A stretch of 64,000 nucleotides of DNA, taken from the NCBI GenBank assembly GCA_964019415.1, contig OZ025872.1, positions 7,705,322-7,769,321 of the forward strand. The letters are read 5' to 3'. Each line of letters opens with the position of its first letter. The stretch's first letter is position 1. The position numbers were made by a program, and so were the translations under genes. This DNA is from Ianthella basta (lineage: Eukaryota > Porifera > Demospongiae > Verongiida > Ianthellidae). This document shows positions 17,701 through 26,500 of this stretch, piece after piece. Below the pieces are notes generated by a model. The model was not told the origin of the DNA. It searched no databases and saw only the letters and a program-made list of their open reading frames with translations.

Positions 17701-20700
17701 GCAGTCCTTTGATGTTTGCAGACAGGTCTCCTTCAGTCTGTGCCACAACTATGGTGTCATCTGCAAACAACAAAATCTGTATGAGGCAGTTATCTAGTGC
17801 TACTCCTCCCTGAAACTCCTTCATTGCCTCCCTCACTACTCTGTCCAGAAAGATATTAAATAACCAATATAACATAATTCTTTCAAGTTATGCTACGTAT
17901 GTCCTTCAATCATTACAGAGATGCACACTGTTTGCAGCTGCTGTGTATGATGTTGGGCTGGACGATGTGAAAGAAAGTGATATCCTGTTGTATGCAGCAC
18001 AACTTGGTTATTGCACCATTATTCAACTGCTATGCAAATGGGGAATGAACGCCAACAAGCAATCCAGTTTCACTGGCACAACACCACTTCTAACTGTTGT
18101 TAGCCCTAACCATCTCAGTGAAGACGAGAAAAAGAAGACAGTTGCTGTACTGTTGAAATGTAATGCCAAAGCCAGTGTTAATGTCCAAAATCATGTTAAG
18201 GACTCTCCCCTGACCATGGCTGTTCTGACAAAGCATGCTGATGTATTTGATCAGCTGCTGGATGCAGGGGCAGCCGGAGGTGAGCCTGACGCAGATGGAA
18301 ATACAATTATGCACATTGCCACTCAGGTGAATGCTGTTGCCATTTGTGAGAAGATGATGGACAAGGATGAATTCAAAAACATGATTGCCATCCAGAACAA
18401 TGACGGCCAGACGCCCATTCACCTCGCAGCAATGCATAGCCCCCAGTGCTTGAGTGGAATTATCTCTGCTCTTAAAAACCAACATGACCAGAGTGGTTAT
18501 CTAAAGTTTGTGGAATGGTTCTCAGCACCTGACAGTGGTGACTGCACACCATTGGATGTTGCTGCAAAAGCAGGACAGAAGGAAACATTTGAATTGATGT
18601 GGACAGAAGTGAAGAAGTATTCTCCTGCTTATATTGAAGCAGAGCGCAGCAAATTGAGGTTCTTCATCAAGGAGGCTGAAAGTGATCCTTCTCAATGGCA
18701 GAGGGTGAATGATTTCCTCAAGCTTGTTCCCAAACGAATGTGAGTCAAACTTATGGCTTATAACATGCTGTACTTGCTTGAATAAGACCCACCTATGCAT
18801 ACACATTGTCATTTGTATATGACAAAACAGTAACTGCCAGACCAACTTTAGGTGGAATTTATGTGCTCATGCATTTTGATAGTGTTTATGCTTGAAATAG
18901 GGATTATACAGTGTGTGTGTGAAATGACTGTTGTTGGCATTATGAATCTGATTTGTTTATCATGCACTGCACAATAGCATAGCCGATGTACGCTACACAC
19001 GTGTTTGTATTTCCTATTATTTGTGATAGGCTCCATGAGGTGCTTTTGGATGATGTATGTGATGCACAAGATGAGAAGCTATCTTTTCGCAGACTGATTA
19101 CAGCCACTGTGAAGGGCGATGCCAAGAGATCTGACCAAGGTCTTCAGGTATGTATGTGTAAACCTTGTAGTTGTACCCAGGGCAGAAGCTCTCTGCATGC
19201 AGCTGCATGAACTGTTCAAGGTAATCATGTAGTAATGATGTTTAAGTCACATACTACAAGAAGTGTAGTGACATCAATTTGTACAGTACCAAAATGTTAG
19301 AAGATAAAAATGGCGGAAGTCCTGAAATTTGAGTTGATCTTGCTCGCGATCCTCTTGCGAATCCTGTACGCCAACGCCAACTCACATCCAGTAGCATCCG
19401 GTGAGCAACCTTTCCCTACCTCCTCTCCTCCAACCCGCTGTCAATTTGCTTTGGAACCCTTCGTGGCTTTCAACGGCAGAAGTCCTCGCCTCCCCGACAT
19501 CAGTAGACGCCAGAGTCGGTGTAGAACTCGCTCTACCTTGGTGGCGAACAAGCTCAAAGTAAGCCAGAAATCAGTGCTATATCTTGCTACCATTTGCCTT
19601 CTGCTGTCGGGTGATGTTGAGCTCAATCCTGGACCGAGATACAAGTTCCCATGTGGCAGGTGTGAAAAACCTGTGCGAGCCAAACAAAAAGGCTTGCAGT
19701 GTGATGAGTGCGATAAATGGTTCCACAGTGTGTGTGAACAGGTTCCTCCAGCAGTGTATTCAACCCTAGCAGGTGGGGATGATGACTGGTTCTGCTCATT
19801 GTGTTCCTTACCCTCCCTCTCAGACAGCTTTTTTGATCCTCCAGTTACCTCTGACAATGCCTCCCACTCCATGCTGGAGTCGAGTGTGGATGTGGACCTA
19901 GACCCTGTCTCACTAGCAGATGTAGTGAAGAGGTACAAGAAGGGGAACGTTTTTGGTCACCTGAATGTGCGGAGTTTGTCTCGATGTGTTGATGAGATCC
20001 ACGACCTTATTGCCCCTATTGGAGATAGCAGCCTGTTCCTCTCCTTGAGTGAGACCTGGCTGGACAGTAGCTGCCCTGACGGTGTAGTGTCAATTCCTGG
20101 ATACAGAATATTCAGGAGAGACAGACGTGGGCTGTCCGTCTGCAAGCATGAGGTCGAGGCTGGGCTGGATGACCCTTCACAACAGAAGGAGGATGCAGAG
20201 GGTGGTGTGCACCAGAAGATGCTTAAGAGGTATGGGACCGAACTATATGAAGATAATGTTTGCAATGAATGAGAGCCTTGGGCTGCGGAGTGCAAGGAGG
20301 CCAAATGATCTGCATTTGAAACCATGCAAGACCAATTGGCTGAGCAGGTCCTTTGCTTACTGTGCAGGGCAGGATTGGAACAGTCTAACTTTGTCAATCA
20401 GAGATGCAAGTGACACTACTTTTAAATCAGCCTTAAAGCAATATTTCATTGACCATGACCTTGGATTGAACCATTGAATTATGTTATGACAATGCAATTT
20501 ATCACAATTCAGTAACAGTATATTATTTCATGTTCTCCCTGTTGTCTATGTTTCATGTTTTCCCTGTTGCCTTTATCCTACTGTATCTTGTTGGGTCCCC
20601 CATTCACACCAGCCTTGTGCTGAAGGGGTAACCTTAATAAATACAATACAATACAATACAATACAATACAATACAATACAATACAATACAATACAATACA

Positions 20701-23301
20701 ATACAATACAATACAATACAATACAATACAATACAATACAATACAATACAATACAATACAATACAATACAATACAATACAATACAATACAATACAATACA
20801 ATACAATACAATACAATACAATACAATACAATACAATACAATACAATACAATACAATACAAAATGTCATGATATGCAAAAATGTATCTTTCCTTTCTAGT
20901 CCTTTGCCTTGCTGTTCAGCATATAAGCCTTTTTAACTATGGGGGTGAGTAGTCAGACAGTGTACAGTAGCACTAAGTAAGCAGTGGATAAGTATGGCAA
21001 GAGCCTCCAACAGAAAGACCAGGAGCAGAGATCTCTTATAGAGCAATTAATTAACTTACTTTCGCACCCGGCATTAAGCATTTCCCAACCTGATAGGATA
21101 GATAGTGAACAAACAAACGTGTATACACACATTACTCTATTGATGAGCTTCCCAGCAGTTTGATGACTTCTGTATGCACTTTTAGCACTCATTGGCTGTA
21201 TGCATACTGAAGAAATAAATGTGTAAGTATTAGTTATACCACGGTGTATTCTGTTCTCCTTGAAACAGTGCGTTCCTACTGCTGCAGTGATTTTGAGTAC
21301 CCTTGCATACAAATTAGTGCATGAACTTGCTGTTTCTCATTTGTGCACTATACGAATCACATACATGGTTTATCTAGCTCGGCTACGGAGCGCTGTACGT
21401 TGTTGGCTTGTGTGTATTGATTGCAGCATGATGGAGGGAAGTATTCTTCTTTTCAATGCTTTGTGGACTCTTCCAAAGCCATGCAAAGTTGAAGCTGACT
21501 GCAAGTCGTGGCATTTGTATGTATGTGCTTTGGTGTGATTTGACACTTTCGTTGTTATCAATAACAACTTTCATATTTGGGCAATGATAACAGGATTTAA
21601 GTGCCCCTGTGCAGTATATAGCTTCTTATTGCAGTTATACCCCAAAAATGGCTTCTTATTGCAGCTATATCCTGGCAGTTGCCCCAGCAAATGAGTATAT
21701 GTTGGTCATATATCATAGTATGCCAAAAGGCTGCTTTGAGGTTAGGGATCATGGCCTAGTCAATTAGTTGTAGAAGTTGTAGAGTTATTTTTGATCATCA
21801 TCAGACAGCACGGTAGTGCTGTCTATGTAGGGATGGCAGTGGTTGTTTGTATGCTGTAATACAAACGAAAGTCGCGCTACTCCTGAACAGGACCGAAAAC
21901 CGGCAAATGATGTTTACCATGAAGAAGCAGGGACTGAATAGTGCACATAGCTAACATTACTTCCCAGCGTCTACATGTAGATAGTGCCCTCGACGTTTCC
22001 CACGTTTTGTCTTCTTCTTTTTCTTCTTCTTTGACAGCCGTAGCGCACGAACCAGAGGGACCAGGAGAATACTTCTCGCACCATATTGCACCATTTTTGG
22101 CTGGCTGCGTTCCTTTGTAGGTTAGAAGGTGGCGCAATTTAGTGTGGAAGATGGCGCTTGCCACAACTCCCACCGTGTTGCTTGGCCAAGCGGGACAGAC
22201 ACCATTTTCAAATTACGTGATTAAACTGGATGAAACTGGCGTGACTGGTGCCATTGCAAGCAGCTGCGTACAACTTCCAGAGACTTCTTCTGTTGTTTTG
22301 CTCCACAGTGGAATTCTTTGCCTTGCTCTACGACTTAGCATGGCATTTGGGTTGTGGAATGAATTATTTACAATGTCAATACATTTTCTCAAATGCAAAT
22401 TGCAGCTAATTCTATCAGGAGCTACACAAGTAGTTTAAATTGCTAGCTATATCATGTATCTTAGCTCCTGCTCCATAAAAAGTGCAGAAACTAGACATAA
22501 TAAAATTTTCTACAAAAATTGTAAGGATGTAGGGATGGCGTAAAAGAATGGGAACAAGTAAGGGCTGTTACATAGTGGAGCATTAACCGTTGTCCCTACA
22601 TTCAAGAGTGTAGGACTATACGGTGTGACATTCTTGCATGTAGGGACCATGGTTAATGCTCCACTATGTAACAGCTTTACTTGTTTCTGTTCTTTTTATG
22701 CCTTCTCTACATCCTTGCAATTTTTGCAGAAAATTTTTATTATGTCTAGTATATAATTAATTCATCATATTTTCAATCATCTTGATCTACATTCAATTTT
22801 CAATCTGCATACATGTATAGGGGGCTGTGAGAGCAGTGTTGGATAGCAGCCTATTTGGTGGTAATGCATTTGTAACCTCAACTCTTGATGGAAGAAGCAG
22901 CACTGCCCGATTCAAACCTGGTGTATGCTGTGCAGGCTGTTGTTGTGCCCGTTGCTATTCAGAAGGATCGAACCTAGAAGCTCTATGTACCACTGACATT
23001 CAAGTAAGCTACAGCAGAGAATGTCCCATAAAGTATACCATTCACATGTGCTTGTGTGCTGTGGGAATGTGTGCATTCTCTGATACACATGTGTGTGTTT
23101 GTGTGCATACTGCCCTGAGGGAGCCATGCGACTGGGGTGATAAGGTTGGTGTCTCCACAGCCAACGGTGCCACTGGTCATGTTGCCACCAGCTGGTTCAC
23201 CTCATTGATGGGGTCCATGTAGCCAAGTCTTGGCTGTCGTATTGCAAATTACAAGTTACAGGCTAAGTTGTGTGCATGTATGTGTGTGTGCGTTGCGCAT
23301 G

Positions 23302-23400
<99 letters not shown>

Positions 23401-23428
23401 ATGTGTGTGCATGTGTGTGTGCATGTGC

Positions 23429-23510
<82 letters not shown>

Positions 23511-26500
23511 CTATGGTGGGTTGTAGATTCAAGATCATTGGGTAGTATACAAATTGAAGGATATGGAATGCTAAGAGCAGTTCTGGCATATTCTGGAGAT
23601 GCTGAATTTTGACTGTTGTGACAGTAACTTCTCAGAAGGAATGGTCAGATGCATTCTTGTGCCTATTCCCATATATAGGACTTATCTCAAAATGTAACAT
23701 TTGCCAATCTCTTTGCTAGATGTTATAGAGATGGTAATCACAAAGGTGGAGTCAGAAGGGCTCAAACCCTACGGAAGAAGCATAATACATTCTACCAAAT
23801 TGTCTGTCCCCTTATCCATATGGGCACCGTCAATCTGGGTTTGAATCTGGGGTATGAATTGATTAAACCTGGATTTAATCACATGAACAGCAGCATGTTG
23901 CAATTAAACCTAGAAGAACATTAGAAGAAGTTAAGAAGATGGGGCAGCTAGATTGCTTAGATTACACTATCTGCCATTGTTGGACTTGTATCAGTGATAT
24001 GGAGCAGACTCATCAGACAGTGATGAAGGATGCACTTCAGGTGGAGGAGTATGTACATAGTTTATCCAGGAGGAGACAGTCTGCAGATTTCTATGAGGGT
24101 GGAGTGAGAAATGTGGGCCACTGTGACTGTTGTTTGTGCTCACTCTACATTTTCTCTGTTTCTGTCATTTCTCCACACCTCTGATAACTGGAAGTTTGTA
24201 ACCATATCATGAAATGAGATTGTAACCCTGGTCTACACCCGGACACAAACCCGGTTGAATTAGATCATACCCAGGTTAGCTGGTGTACTGTTGTGAATGC
24301 CAAAACCCAGATATAATCTGGATCATGGTGCCTGTGTGAAAGAGGGGAATGACGTTTCAGTAGAGAATGTTCCTACTCATGGTGATCATATATATAGACT
24401 AATAGTTTAATGCTAAACTGGTGGAGAAGCCTGCATCTTGTAGTGCAAGCCAATATTGTGGTTCAGTGACAATAGTGTTGTGAAGGCATGTCTCCCAGAG
24501 GCTCCGATCACCTGCTGTCATGTAACAATGTGTCATGTAACAATGTGTAGTGCCACTTTGTCTAGAACTTTCGACACATGCATCTATAAAAGATCACCTC
24601 CTCCCTTTGTAACTGCTGCTGTTGTTGTTCAATAAAGCTCCCTGGTTCCCGTTACCAGTGTCCGTTCGCGTAGTGCCTGTCCCTTACCCTGTCCTCGCTG
24701 TCTGGACTTGTCCCATGTACCCCGTGCCCACGACAACGGTACAATTGGTGTCAGAAGTGGGATCTAGATGAGTACCAGAGCGACAACCAAGATGGAGGCT
24801 CTTCTTGAGGAGGTGATCCAGCAGAACGAAAAGATAGTCCGGCGAATGGACGAGCAGTCGGAGCAAATTAGCGAGCATCTGAGGATGCTGAGTCAGCAGC
24901 AGTCGGAACGAGTAGACGGTATCGCCCAGAAGCAAAAGGAGACTGAACAGGAAGTCAGTGCCATCGCAGGAGATTTGAGCTCCGTAAAGCTGACCGTTGA
25001 GGGTCGGCTGAGTGCAATGGAGAGCTCAGTATCAGGACTGACGAATCAGCTCCGCACCGAGGTCGGAGAAAGCCGCGAGTCACTGAAGCAGGAACTTCGC
25101 GTGGAACTACTACGGGAGCTTGGAGCTACACCCGGTCTTCGCCCTGCTGCGCGCCCCTTCACGCCTTCGGACCCGAATACAGAAGCAATTGGAGGGCAGA
25201 CTAATCGGGTTGGGGACACCAGTGCAGCGGGCAGGACACCCCTCACCCCGAGTGTGGTACAACAGCGCCCTGCACCATTCGATGGGACGCTTGCTTGGGA
25301 CGCCTACCATGCCCAATTTGAGTTGTTGGCAGAAATGAATAGGTGGGACCGCTCAGAGAAGGCCACTTATCTGGCCATCAGTCTAAAAGGGGCTGCAGCC
25401 ACCGTATTGACAAACCTCCCTCCGGAGAAGCGCCATGACTATGCAGCCCTGACTACAGCACTGGACTCCCGATTTGGTGCGACACACCAGACTGAACTGA
25501 ACAGGATGCGCCTCAAGTCCAGAACCCGTCACAGAGATGAGACCTTGGCTGAGCTTGCAGAAGATGTTGAACGCCTTACACGCCTTGCATACCCAGGAGC
25601 TTGCCAACCTGAGACAAGTGTTTGAACGGCTGAGGGAGGCTAAACTGAAGTTGTCACCAAAGAAGTGCACTCTTTTCCAGAAGGAAGTGAACTACTTGGG
25701 TCATGTAGTCAATGAAAAGGGCATCTCCCCAGACCCCTGCAAGGTTGAGGCAGTCAAGTCCTGGCCTAAGCCTACTACGGCTACCGAAGTGAAGAGCTTC
25801 CTGGGCCTTTGCTCCTACTACCGGCGATTCATCAGTTTCTTTGCCGACATTGCACACCCCCTACATCAGAGTGCCACAGTCTCTCCTTTTGAGTGGACAC
25901 AGGAAGCTGATGATGCCTTCAGCAAACTAAAGCAGATGCTGACAGAGTCCCCTATTCTTGCCTATCCGCAACTGGATGTTGAGTTTGTGCTTGACACCGA
26001 TGCAAGTAGCACTGGCATCGGTGCTGTTCTTTCACAGCAGGTTAATGGACAAGAGAGGGTGGTTGCTTATTTCAGTCGCGCCTTGAAAGCACCAGAACGC
26101 CACTATTGTGTGACCCGTAAAGAGCTACTGGCCATGGTGAAGGCAATCAGGCACTTTCATGCTTACCTGTATGGTAGGAAGTTTCGGCTTCGCACTGATC
26201 ATTCAGCTCTTCGTTGGTTGTTGAACTTCCGGCACCCAGAGGGCCAGACTGCCAGATGGATTGAGAGTCTCCAGCAGTATGATTTCTCAGTGGAGCACAG
26301 GCCCGGTGTTCAACATACCAATGCAGATGCACTCTCAAGACGGCCGTGCCTGAGAGATACTTGTAAGCACTGTGAACGATTGGAGTCACGAGAGTGGGGG
26401 AACAAGCCTCATGACCGTATAACTGGTCAAGATGTACCACAGGTAGCCACGCTTGCCTTGAGTGGACCAGAACCCACTGGAGGCAGGTCTTGGGAGAATC

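Follow-up and report, generated by a model that had tools for sequence, protein, structure and literature searches.

A dead LINE copy encodes a 2A core ahead of a PHD finger

Within the window (the whole stretch of 64,000 nucleotides from Ianthella basta contig OZ025872.1 that we analysed), an ankyrin-repeat ORF at 17943-18743 is followed downstream, in the sense orientation, by a LINE copy that belongs to what we term family A and that probably sits in an intron (Table 1). (Note that a long GT microsatellite at 23270-23545 of the window yields spurious ORFs.) The LINE copy carries a 320-aa ORF that opens with MAEVLKFELILLAILLRILYANANS and bears the sequence SVLYLATICLLLSGDVELNPGP. The original prediction, made from the letters of the window, was that this frame contains the ribosome-skipping motif GDVELNPGP at residues 101-109, with a PHD finger next and the opening part of an APE endonuclease (EN) after that, and motif, order and frame are all as claimed. 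In particular, the 2A core fits the pattern (D/G/C/N)(V/I)ExNPGP and occurs once in the window as against no occurrence in 100 shuffles, the PHD finger is matched with an E-value of 1.8e-7, and a run of ~60 residues beyond the PHD finger aligns with the start of EN in intact relatives. (The Pfam domain Exo_endo_phos begins at residue 220 of the L042 frame; Pfam gave no match to EN in the 320-aa ORF of the window.) The interval first assigned to the feature, 19310 to 19750, needs correction: its end cuts the PHD finger, and the element runs from ~19306 to 20859.

Alignment with intact relatives shows that 2,249 bp, from the start of EN to near the end of the coding sequence, are missing from the window copy, with a 3-nt GGC microhomology at the join. 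Because this segment, which comprises most of EN and all of the reverse transcriptase (RT), is absent, the copy is unable to encode EN-RT; it retains the leader, the 2A and the PHD finger, and has lost the enzyme. The copy is dead, and the finding concerns its family. The original prediction had overlooked this deletion, as it had the near-leaderless start and the host 2A arrays described below. The deletion junction occurs once in the genome even when up to 2 mismatches are allowed, and on that ground we rejected a multi-copy deletion derivative. Tails of the AATAC pentamer, shorter than that of the window copy, were present in all six family A copies that were compared.

Table 1. The LINE copy and its parts, in window positions
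Feature	Positions	Strand	Basis
Whole LINE family A copy, 5'-complete, internally deleted	19306..20859	+	Two blocks 98.5-99% identical to L042/L039/L041; upstream flanks diverge
TISU/YY1-like start context AAAA-ATGGCGGA at element 5' end	19306..19317	+	Family A comparison
320-aa ORF: leader, 2A, PHD, truncated EN, frameshifted tail	19310..20272	+	
Signal-like hydrophobic N-terminal leader segment, ~residues 6-22	19325..19375	+	KD17 and predicted helix
Hydrophobic stretch ahead of 2A core (SVLYLATICLLL)	19571..19606	+	Resembles, by eye, the L-rich LLLLSG upstream class of PMC12846837
2A/StopGo core GDVELNPGP, predicted skip G108/P109	19610..19636	+	Residues 101-109
PHD finger, residues 115-165	19652..19804	+	Pfam PF00628, E 1.8e-7; best PDB sequence match Pygopus PHD (2vpe, E 4.3e-7)
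APE endonuclease N-terminal fragment	19955..20131	+	Alignment with intact copies; L042 EN is residues 220-420
2,249-bp internal deletion junction, GGC microhomology, frameshifting	20130..20132	+	
Leftover LINE 3' end: last coding stretch (frame ends 20477) and 3' UTR	20130..20639	+	98.7-99.1% identical to L042/L039/L041; ORF 20127-20477
(AATAC)n 3' tail, 220 nt	20640..20859	+	By eye

The element is a single-ORF LINE of the PHD type

Matches to PF03372 and PF00078 above the Pfam cut-off, in one frame with the PHD finger, were found in L042, L049, L057 and L058; in two of these, L049 and L057, the PHD finger itself scores slightly below that threshold. The PHD finger precedes EN and a separate ORF1 is absent; indeed, there is no room for one, because upstream of the ORF the copies have no more than 19 nt in common (see below). 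Judged by its architecture, the family is a single-ORF, PHD-type APE LINE that is CR1/L2-like. The PHD finger of Pygopus is a histone H3 reader. Pygopus provides the best PHD match for the present LINE and for L2 subgroup 4 alike, and its H3-reader role fits the suggestion that the PHD finger guides integration (PMC4120745). Single-ORF, PHD-type CR1/L2 LINEs have been described as type IIIA (CR1 subgroup 6 and L2 subgroup 4), and the present LINE is like them in having a single ORF, one PHD finger, an APE endonuclease and RT; the text of that account, in which '2A-like' does not occur, presents single-ORF elements as possible reversions or parasites, of which StopGo offers another reading (PMC4120745). 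(On contig C1, 2A sites at 6974005, 11023691 and 2425111 lie directly before an EN match with no PHD match between, and LINEs with a 2A and without a PHD finger may exist.)

The 2A core is conserved across five LINE families

A search of the genome (209 Mb in 96 contigs) with residues 1-272 gave 147 matches, and we analysed the best 30 of these 147, the window copy included. D[VI]ExNPGP is intact in 24 of the 30, and the other six have, one each, a 7-residue deletion, a replaced leader, HPGP, NPCP, NPEP and NPRP. Loss of NPGP from full-length relatives had been named beforehand as a result that would refute the prediction, and the test did not refute it; among the 13 of the 30 matches with an open frame of at least 1,100 aa (stop to stop), the motif is kept in 12, one of which (L028) has a stop inside the leader, and the thirteenth is the NPCP copy, with an open frame of 1,159 aa. 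On contigs C1-C3 below 9.15 Mb, where the list of sites is complete, a 2A site is present in 15 of the 21 motif-spanning matches and absent from 6 (some of the 21 overlap the 30). Genome-wide there are 360 matches to the 2A motif and none to the reversed pattern, which, together with the comparison between the window and its shuffles, argues that the motif does not occur by chance.

All five families (A-E) carry the 2A motif. Intact relatives consist of one frame of 1,086-1,153 aa with the order leader-2A-PHD-EN-RT, and in all five families the frame runs on past the 2A into a second protein, of which the window copy has only the PHD finger and an EN stub. When representatives were aligned (L042 for family A, L049 for B, L057 for C, L058 for D and L054 for E), mean pairwise identity was 23% for residues 1-25, 20% for residues 26-90, 27% for residues 91-99, 76% for the nine core residues, 47% for the linker and PHD finger, 44% for EN and 52% for RT. 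(The value of 76% is an underestimate, for family E is represented by the NPCP copy and the alignment has a gap within the core of family C.) Among motif-bearing representatives (L024 being used for family E), 48 of the 80 comparisons of core codons (eight codons in ten family pairs) differ synonymously and 4 differ nonsynonymously, the latter count being low partly by choice because representatives were picked with intact motifs. In all five families, then, the core residues have been retained despite change in the codons.

The aspartate at p12 is preceded by a leucine-rich context, namely LLLSG in families A, B and E, LILAG in family C and LLIAG in family D. An L-rich StopGo class with G at p11 and D at p12 has been described, and motif 6 of that class is active in vitro (PMC12846837). 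In a class assignment made by eye, the LINE context, with (S/A)G before the D, resembles motifs 2/6 of that study; it differs from them at p15, which is L, C or I in the LINE families whereas S is preferred in motifs 2/6 (PMC12846837). Taken together, the sequence evidence makes it very likely that the 2A skips in this LINE family, as predicted.

The leader has a signal-like N-terminus

A signal-like hydrophobic N-terminus had also been predicted, and it recurs in all five families even though the sequence differs. The highest 17-residue Kyte-Doolittle mean (KD17) falls within the first 28 residues in every family (1.90-2.61; shuffle P 0.0008-0.018), as in L042 of family A, where the maximum is 2.10 at residue 4 (shuffle P 0.008). 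The Fisher combined P of 2e-8 over the five families is too small because the families are related and so are not independent. A helix is predicted at residues 2-25, with a mean pLDDT of 80-84 for residues 1-20, and this N-terminal helix is the only usable part of a single-sequence structure model of the leader and PHD finger (mean pLDDT 43.8). The middle of the leader has a net charge of +6 or +7 in four of the five families and of -2 in family C, and hydrophobicity ahead of the 2A is weak in some families (KD17 0.94-1.89). The leader is predicted, with about an even chance of being right, to go to the ER or a membrane. Given that 12 of the 13 long frames keep the motif and that the N-terminus is hydrophobic in five families, the claim that a separate N-terminal peptide is made is well supported.

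A different account of the same leader is that it is a mere spacer, and that the 2A is kept for trimming, which would leave the PHD finger near a free proline end. Such an account would fit the position of the first PHD cysteine, which in every family comes 5-9 residues beyond NPGP, and the near freedom of the leader to vary (20% identity in residues 26-90), but N-terminal hydrophobicity is retained where the sequence is not, and a start codon beside the PHD finger would be a simpler route, one that is open to L047, which has a 1,049-aa open frame starting there. We regard the spacer account as unlikely.

It is more doubtful that skipping is incomplete by design, so that some leader-PHD-EN-RT is deliberately sent to the secretory pathway. 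We know of no use of a nuclear endonuclease-RT in the secretory pathway, and the core and its context (D at p12, G at p11) resemble efficient StopGo. What speaks for such dual targeting is the signal-like N-terminus in all five families, the proposal of dual targeting for the 2A signal sequences of sea urchin NLRs (PMC4981915), and a published case in which the 2A was inhibited when the upstream protein was ER-targeted, some ER-targeted upstream sequences being inhibitory (De Felipe et al., PMC2978324), a result that also weighs against the leader-shedding model given below. The sea urchin NLRs and the LINE are alike in having a 2A near the N-terminus, signal-like hydrophobicity and two possible products, and with the NLRs as precedent it is plausible that failed skipping alters targeting, as had originally been suggested for the LINE. 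However, in the sea urchin NLRs the 2A is the signal itself (PMC4981915), whereas in all five LINE leaders the signal-like segment ends ~60-80 residues ahead of the 2A core (the best hydrophobic window lies within residues 2-28, and the 2A ends at residues 93-109). At that distance, we infer, much of the segment should be outside the ribosome at the time of skipping.

It is very improbable that NPGP is an inactive relic that no longer causes skipping, for although the motif is absent from 6 of the 30 best matches, the 48 synonymous differences among 80 core codon comparisons, with the amino acids kept in all five families, and the genome-wide count of 360 against 0 argue against it.

LINE copies begin within about 20 nucleotides of the start codon

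The start was present in 28 of the 30 loci, comprising the window copy at 19310 and 27 loci among L010-L038 (nine in family A, five each in B, C and E, and four in D). Exact sequence shared upstream of the ATG amounts to 1-19 nt in all 28 copies, or up to 22 nt if one mismatch is allowed, and mean identity within families at positions -60 to -21 is 24-28%, as expected of unrelated DNA. In family A, AAAA stands before the ATG in 8-9 of 9 copies at each position, and beyond it the flanks diverge. The tetramers before the ATG are AAAA in family A (AATA in one copy), AAAG in B, CAAG in C, CAAA or GAAA in D and CAAA or AAAA in E. ATGGCG is the start in all five families, a result on which there is a mild bias in that the probes used to find the starts began with ATGGCG (8 of 33 mismatches were allowed). 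Codon 2 is GCG in 26 of the 28 copies and GTG, a CpG-type change, in two, while elsewhere in representative ORFs only 5.5-12% of alanine codons are GCG.

These starts call to mind the TISU element, the 12-base consensus of which is SAAS-ATGGCGGC. The LINE starts match this 12-base form only partly: families B and C alone have G at -1, D and E depart from the consensus at +7, and A, B and C do so at +8. What they share with TISU, which is both a start site on very short leaders and a YY1 promoter element and which was tested in mammalian cells, is an A-rich stretch followed by ATGGCG, a leader that is very short as judged from genomic 5' ends, and overlap with a putative YY1 site (PMC2518114). 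In another sponge, Amphimedon, a YY1/Kozak-like motif is located ~10 bp after the start site in a fraction of genes (PMC4773876).

If genomic 5' ends are taken as a proxy for the start of the RNA (reverse transcription that stops short could mimic them), LINE RNA probably starts within ~20 nt of the start codon and is near-leaderless. Since shared sequence reaches no further than 19 nt ahead of the start codon, which lies in a TISU/YY1-like context, the promoter probably overlaps with coding sequence; where a 5' UTR is all but absent, a promoter would have to do so or else lie outside the element. Whether the 5' coding region itself serves as the putative promoter we consider evenly balanced. 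(When the 5' ends of five representative LINE loci were searched against Rfam at E up to 1, no ribozyme was matched, whether HDV-like or of another known type.)

A proposed model for a LINE that sheds its leader

Building on the observed anatomy, conservation and genomic 5' ends, we consider it likely that the element, as a whole, is a near-leaderless LINE in which the 2A sheds a membrane-seeking leader and leaves a separate PHD-EN-RT. The RNA would begin within ~20 nt of the start codon, translation would start in the TISU-like manner used on short leaders, and an internal promoter would lie within the first coding nucleotides. The ribosome would then make a leader of ~90-110 residues: first the signal-like N-terminus, next a variable middle (basic in every family except C), and finally a hydrophobic stretch with GD[VI]ExNPG at its end. 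At this point 2A/StopGo would make the ribosome skip the Gly-Pro bond, so that the leader is released and Pro-PHD-EN-RT follows. Skipping would thereby free the nuclear EN-RT from a leader that might otherwise draw it to the ER; because the leaders keep a signal-like N-terminus, it would keep PHD-EN-RT off the secretory pathway and in the cytosol or nucleus. Skipping would also allow promoter-bearing 5' DNA to be translated with no burden on the enzyme.

On the simplest account, which the conserved skipping signal suggests, one RNA with one frame probably gives rise to two proteins, the enzyme that copies the element and a small peptide that seeks membranes, and a conserved 2A behind a membrane-seeking leader makes this a testable answer. 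The near-leaderless start in turn suggests a use for the shed leader, since it would force the promoter into coding sequence.

The occurrence of 2A sequences in LINEs is already known. Odon et al. reportedly found 2A-like sequences in APE-type LINEs in 2013, and Heras et al. are said to have found one in L1Tc of T. cruzi in 2006; a 2A-like sequence within the ORF of an APE-type LINE is common to these elements and to the present families. What may be new is the present combination: among the titles and abstract openings listed, drawn largely from open literature, none described a LINE that joins a 2A to a near-leaderless or TISU-like start, and a prior description may exist.

2A motifs also occur in arrays with probable NLR-like host genes

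Some of the 2A motifs in the genome probably belong to host genes. At least 53 of the 360 are in tandem arrays that are paired, by position, with what are probably NLR-like (STAND NTPase) host genes. The minus strand of contig C2 has 40 2A motifs at 1.10-2.16 Mb, with a median spacing of 24.8 kb, and 13 further same-strand motifs at 3.61-3.89 Mb, the spacing on C2 being ~20-25 kb overall. Among 22 scored nSTAND3 matches (of 359 candidates), 21 fall in these two arrays, where their open frames are mostly ~540 aa. Of these 21, 18 are at most 10 kb and 20 at most 12.5 kb downstream of a same-strand 2A, with one at 32 kb; a random point in the first C2 array has a 38% chance of falling within 10 kb. 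The remaining nSTAND3 match is in an array on contig C4, 9.3 kb downstream of a 2A.

This C4 array has at least 68 2A motifs of the non-G class at 4.05-8.92 Mb, mostly on the plus strand up to 8.3 Mb, and at least 3 of them adjoin LINE matches. Of 437 Death-domain candidates 150 were scored, and each of the four scored matches on C4 has a same-strand 2A 1.8-3.5 kb upstream of it, where the chance per site is 0.025; on C1-C3, none of 38 Death matches is within 3.6 kb of a 2A. NB-ARC gave 10 matches genome-wide; one falls in a C2 array, and five are within or next to the array on C4. Judging from position, an array 2A and the nearby domain probably belong to one NLR-like gene, and the C2 and C4 arrays with an upstream 2A are reminiscent of the sea urchin NLRs.

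Similarity between the leaders of the LINEs and those of the C4 array is mostly 35-42% over ~43-49 residues, the shared core included, and is not significant (E 0.87-4.5), so we rejected a common origin of the two on this evidence. As a tentative and rather speculative extension, StopGo might be a shared N-terminal module, by which LINEs shed a promoter-encoded, membrane-directed peptide and of which the NLR-like (STAND/Death) arrays carry the same kind, either by exchange between LINE and gene or by parallel recruitment. If this were true, the 2A would be no peculiarity of echinoderms or viruses but a general animal device by which a leader of the signal-like kind is joined to a product that may or may not be cytosolic. 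Judged from the host arrays, immune-type genes of animals may use 2A more widely than the sea urchin case shows.

It was the NB-ARC, Death and nSTAND3 searches that gave the NLR-like lead for the C2 and C4 arrays. We had also entertained the idea that these are NACHT genes, but none of the 102 scored NACHT matches (of 469 candidates, the unscored ones of which may fall there) is in the arrays. Large NACHT arrays are present apart from the 2A arrays of C2 and C4, at 8.2-8.65 Mb on C8, 10.4-10.7 Mb on C5, 0.15-1.3 Mb on C10 and 0.9-1.85 Mb on C17.
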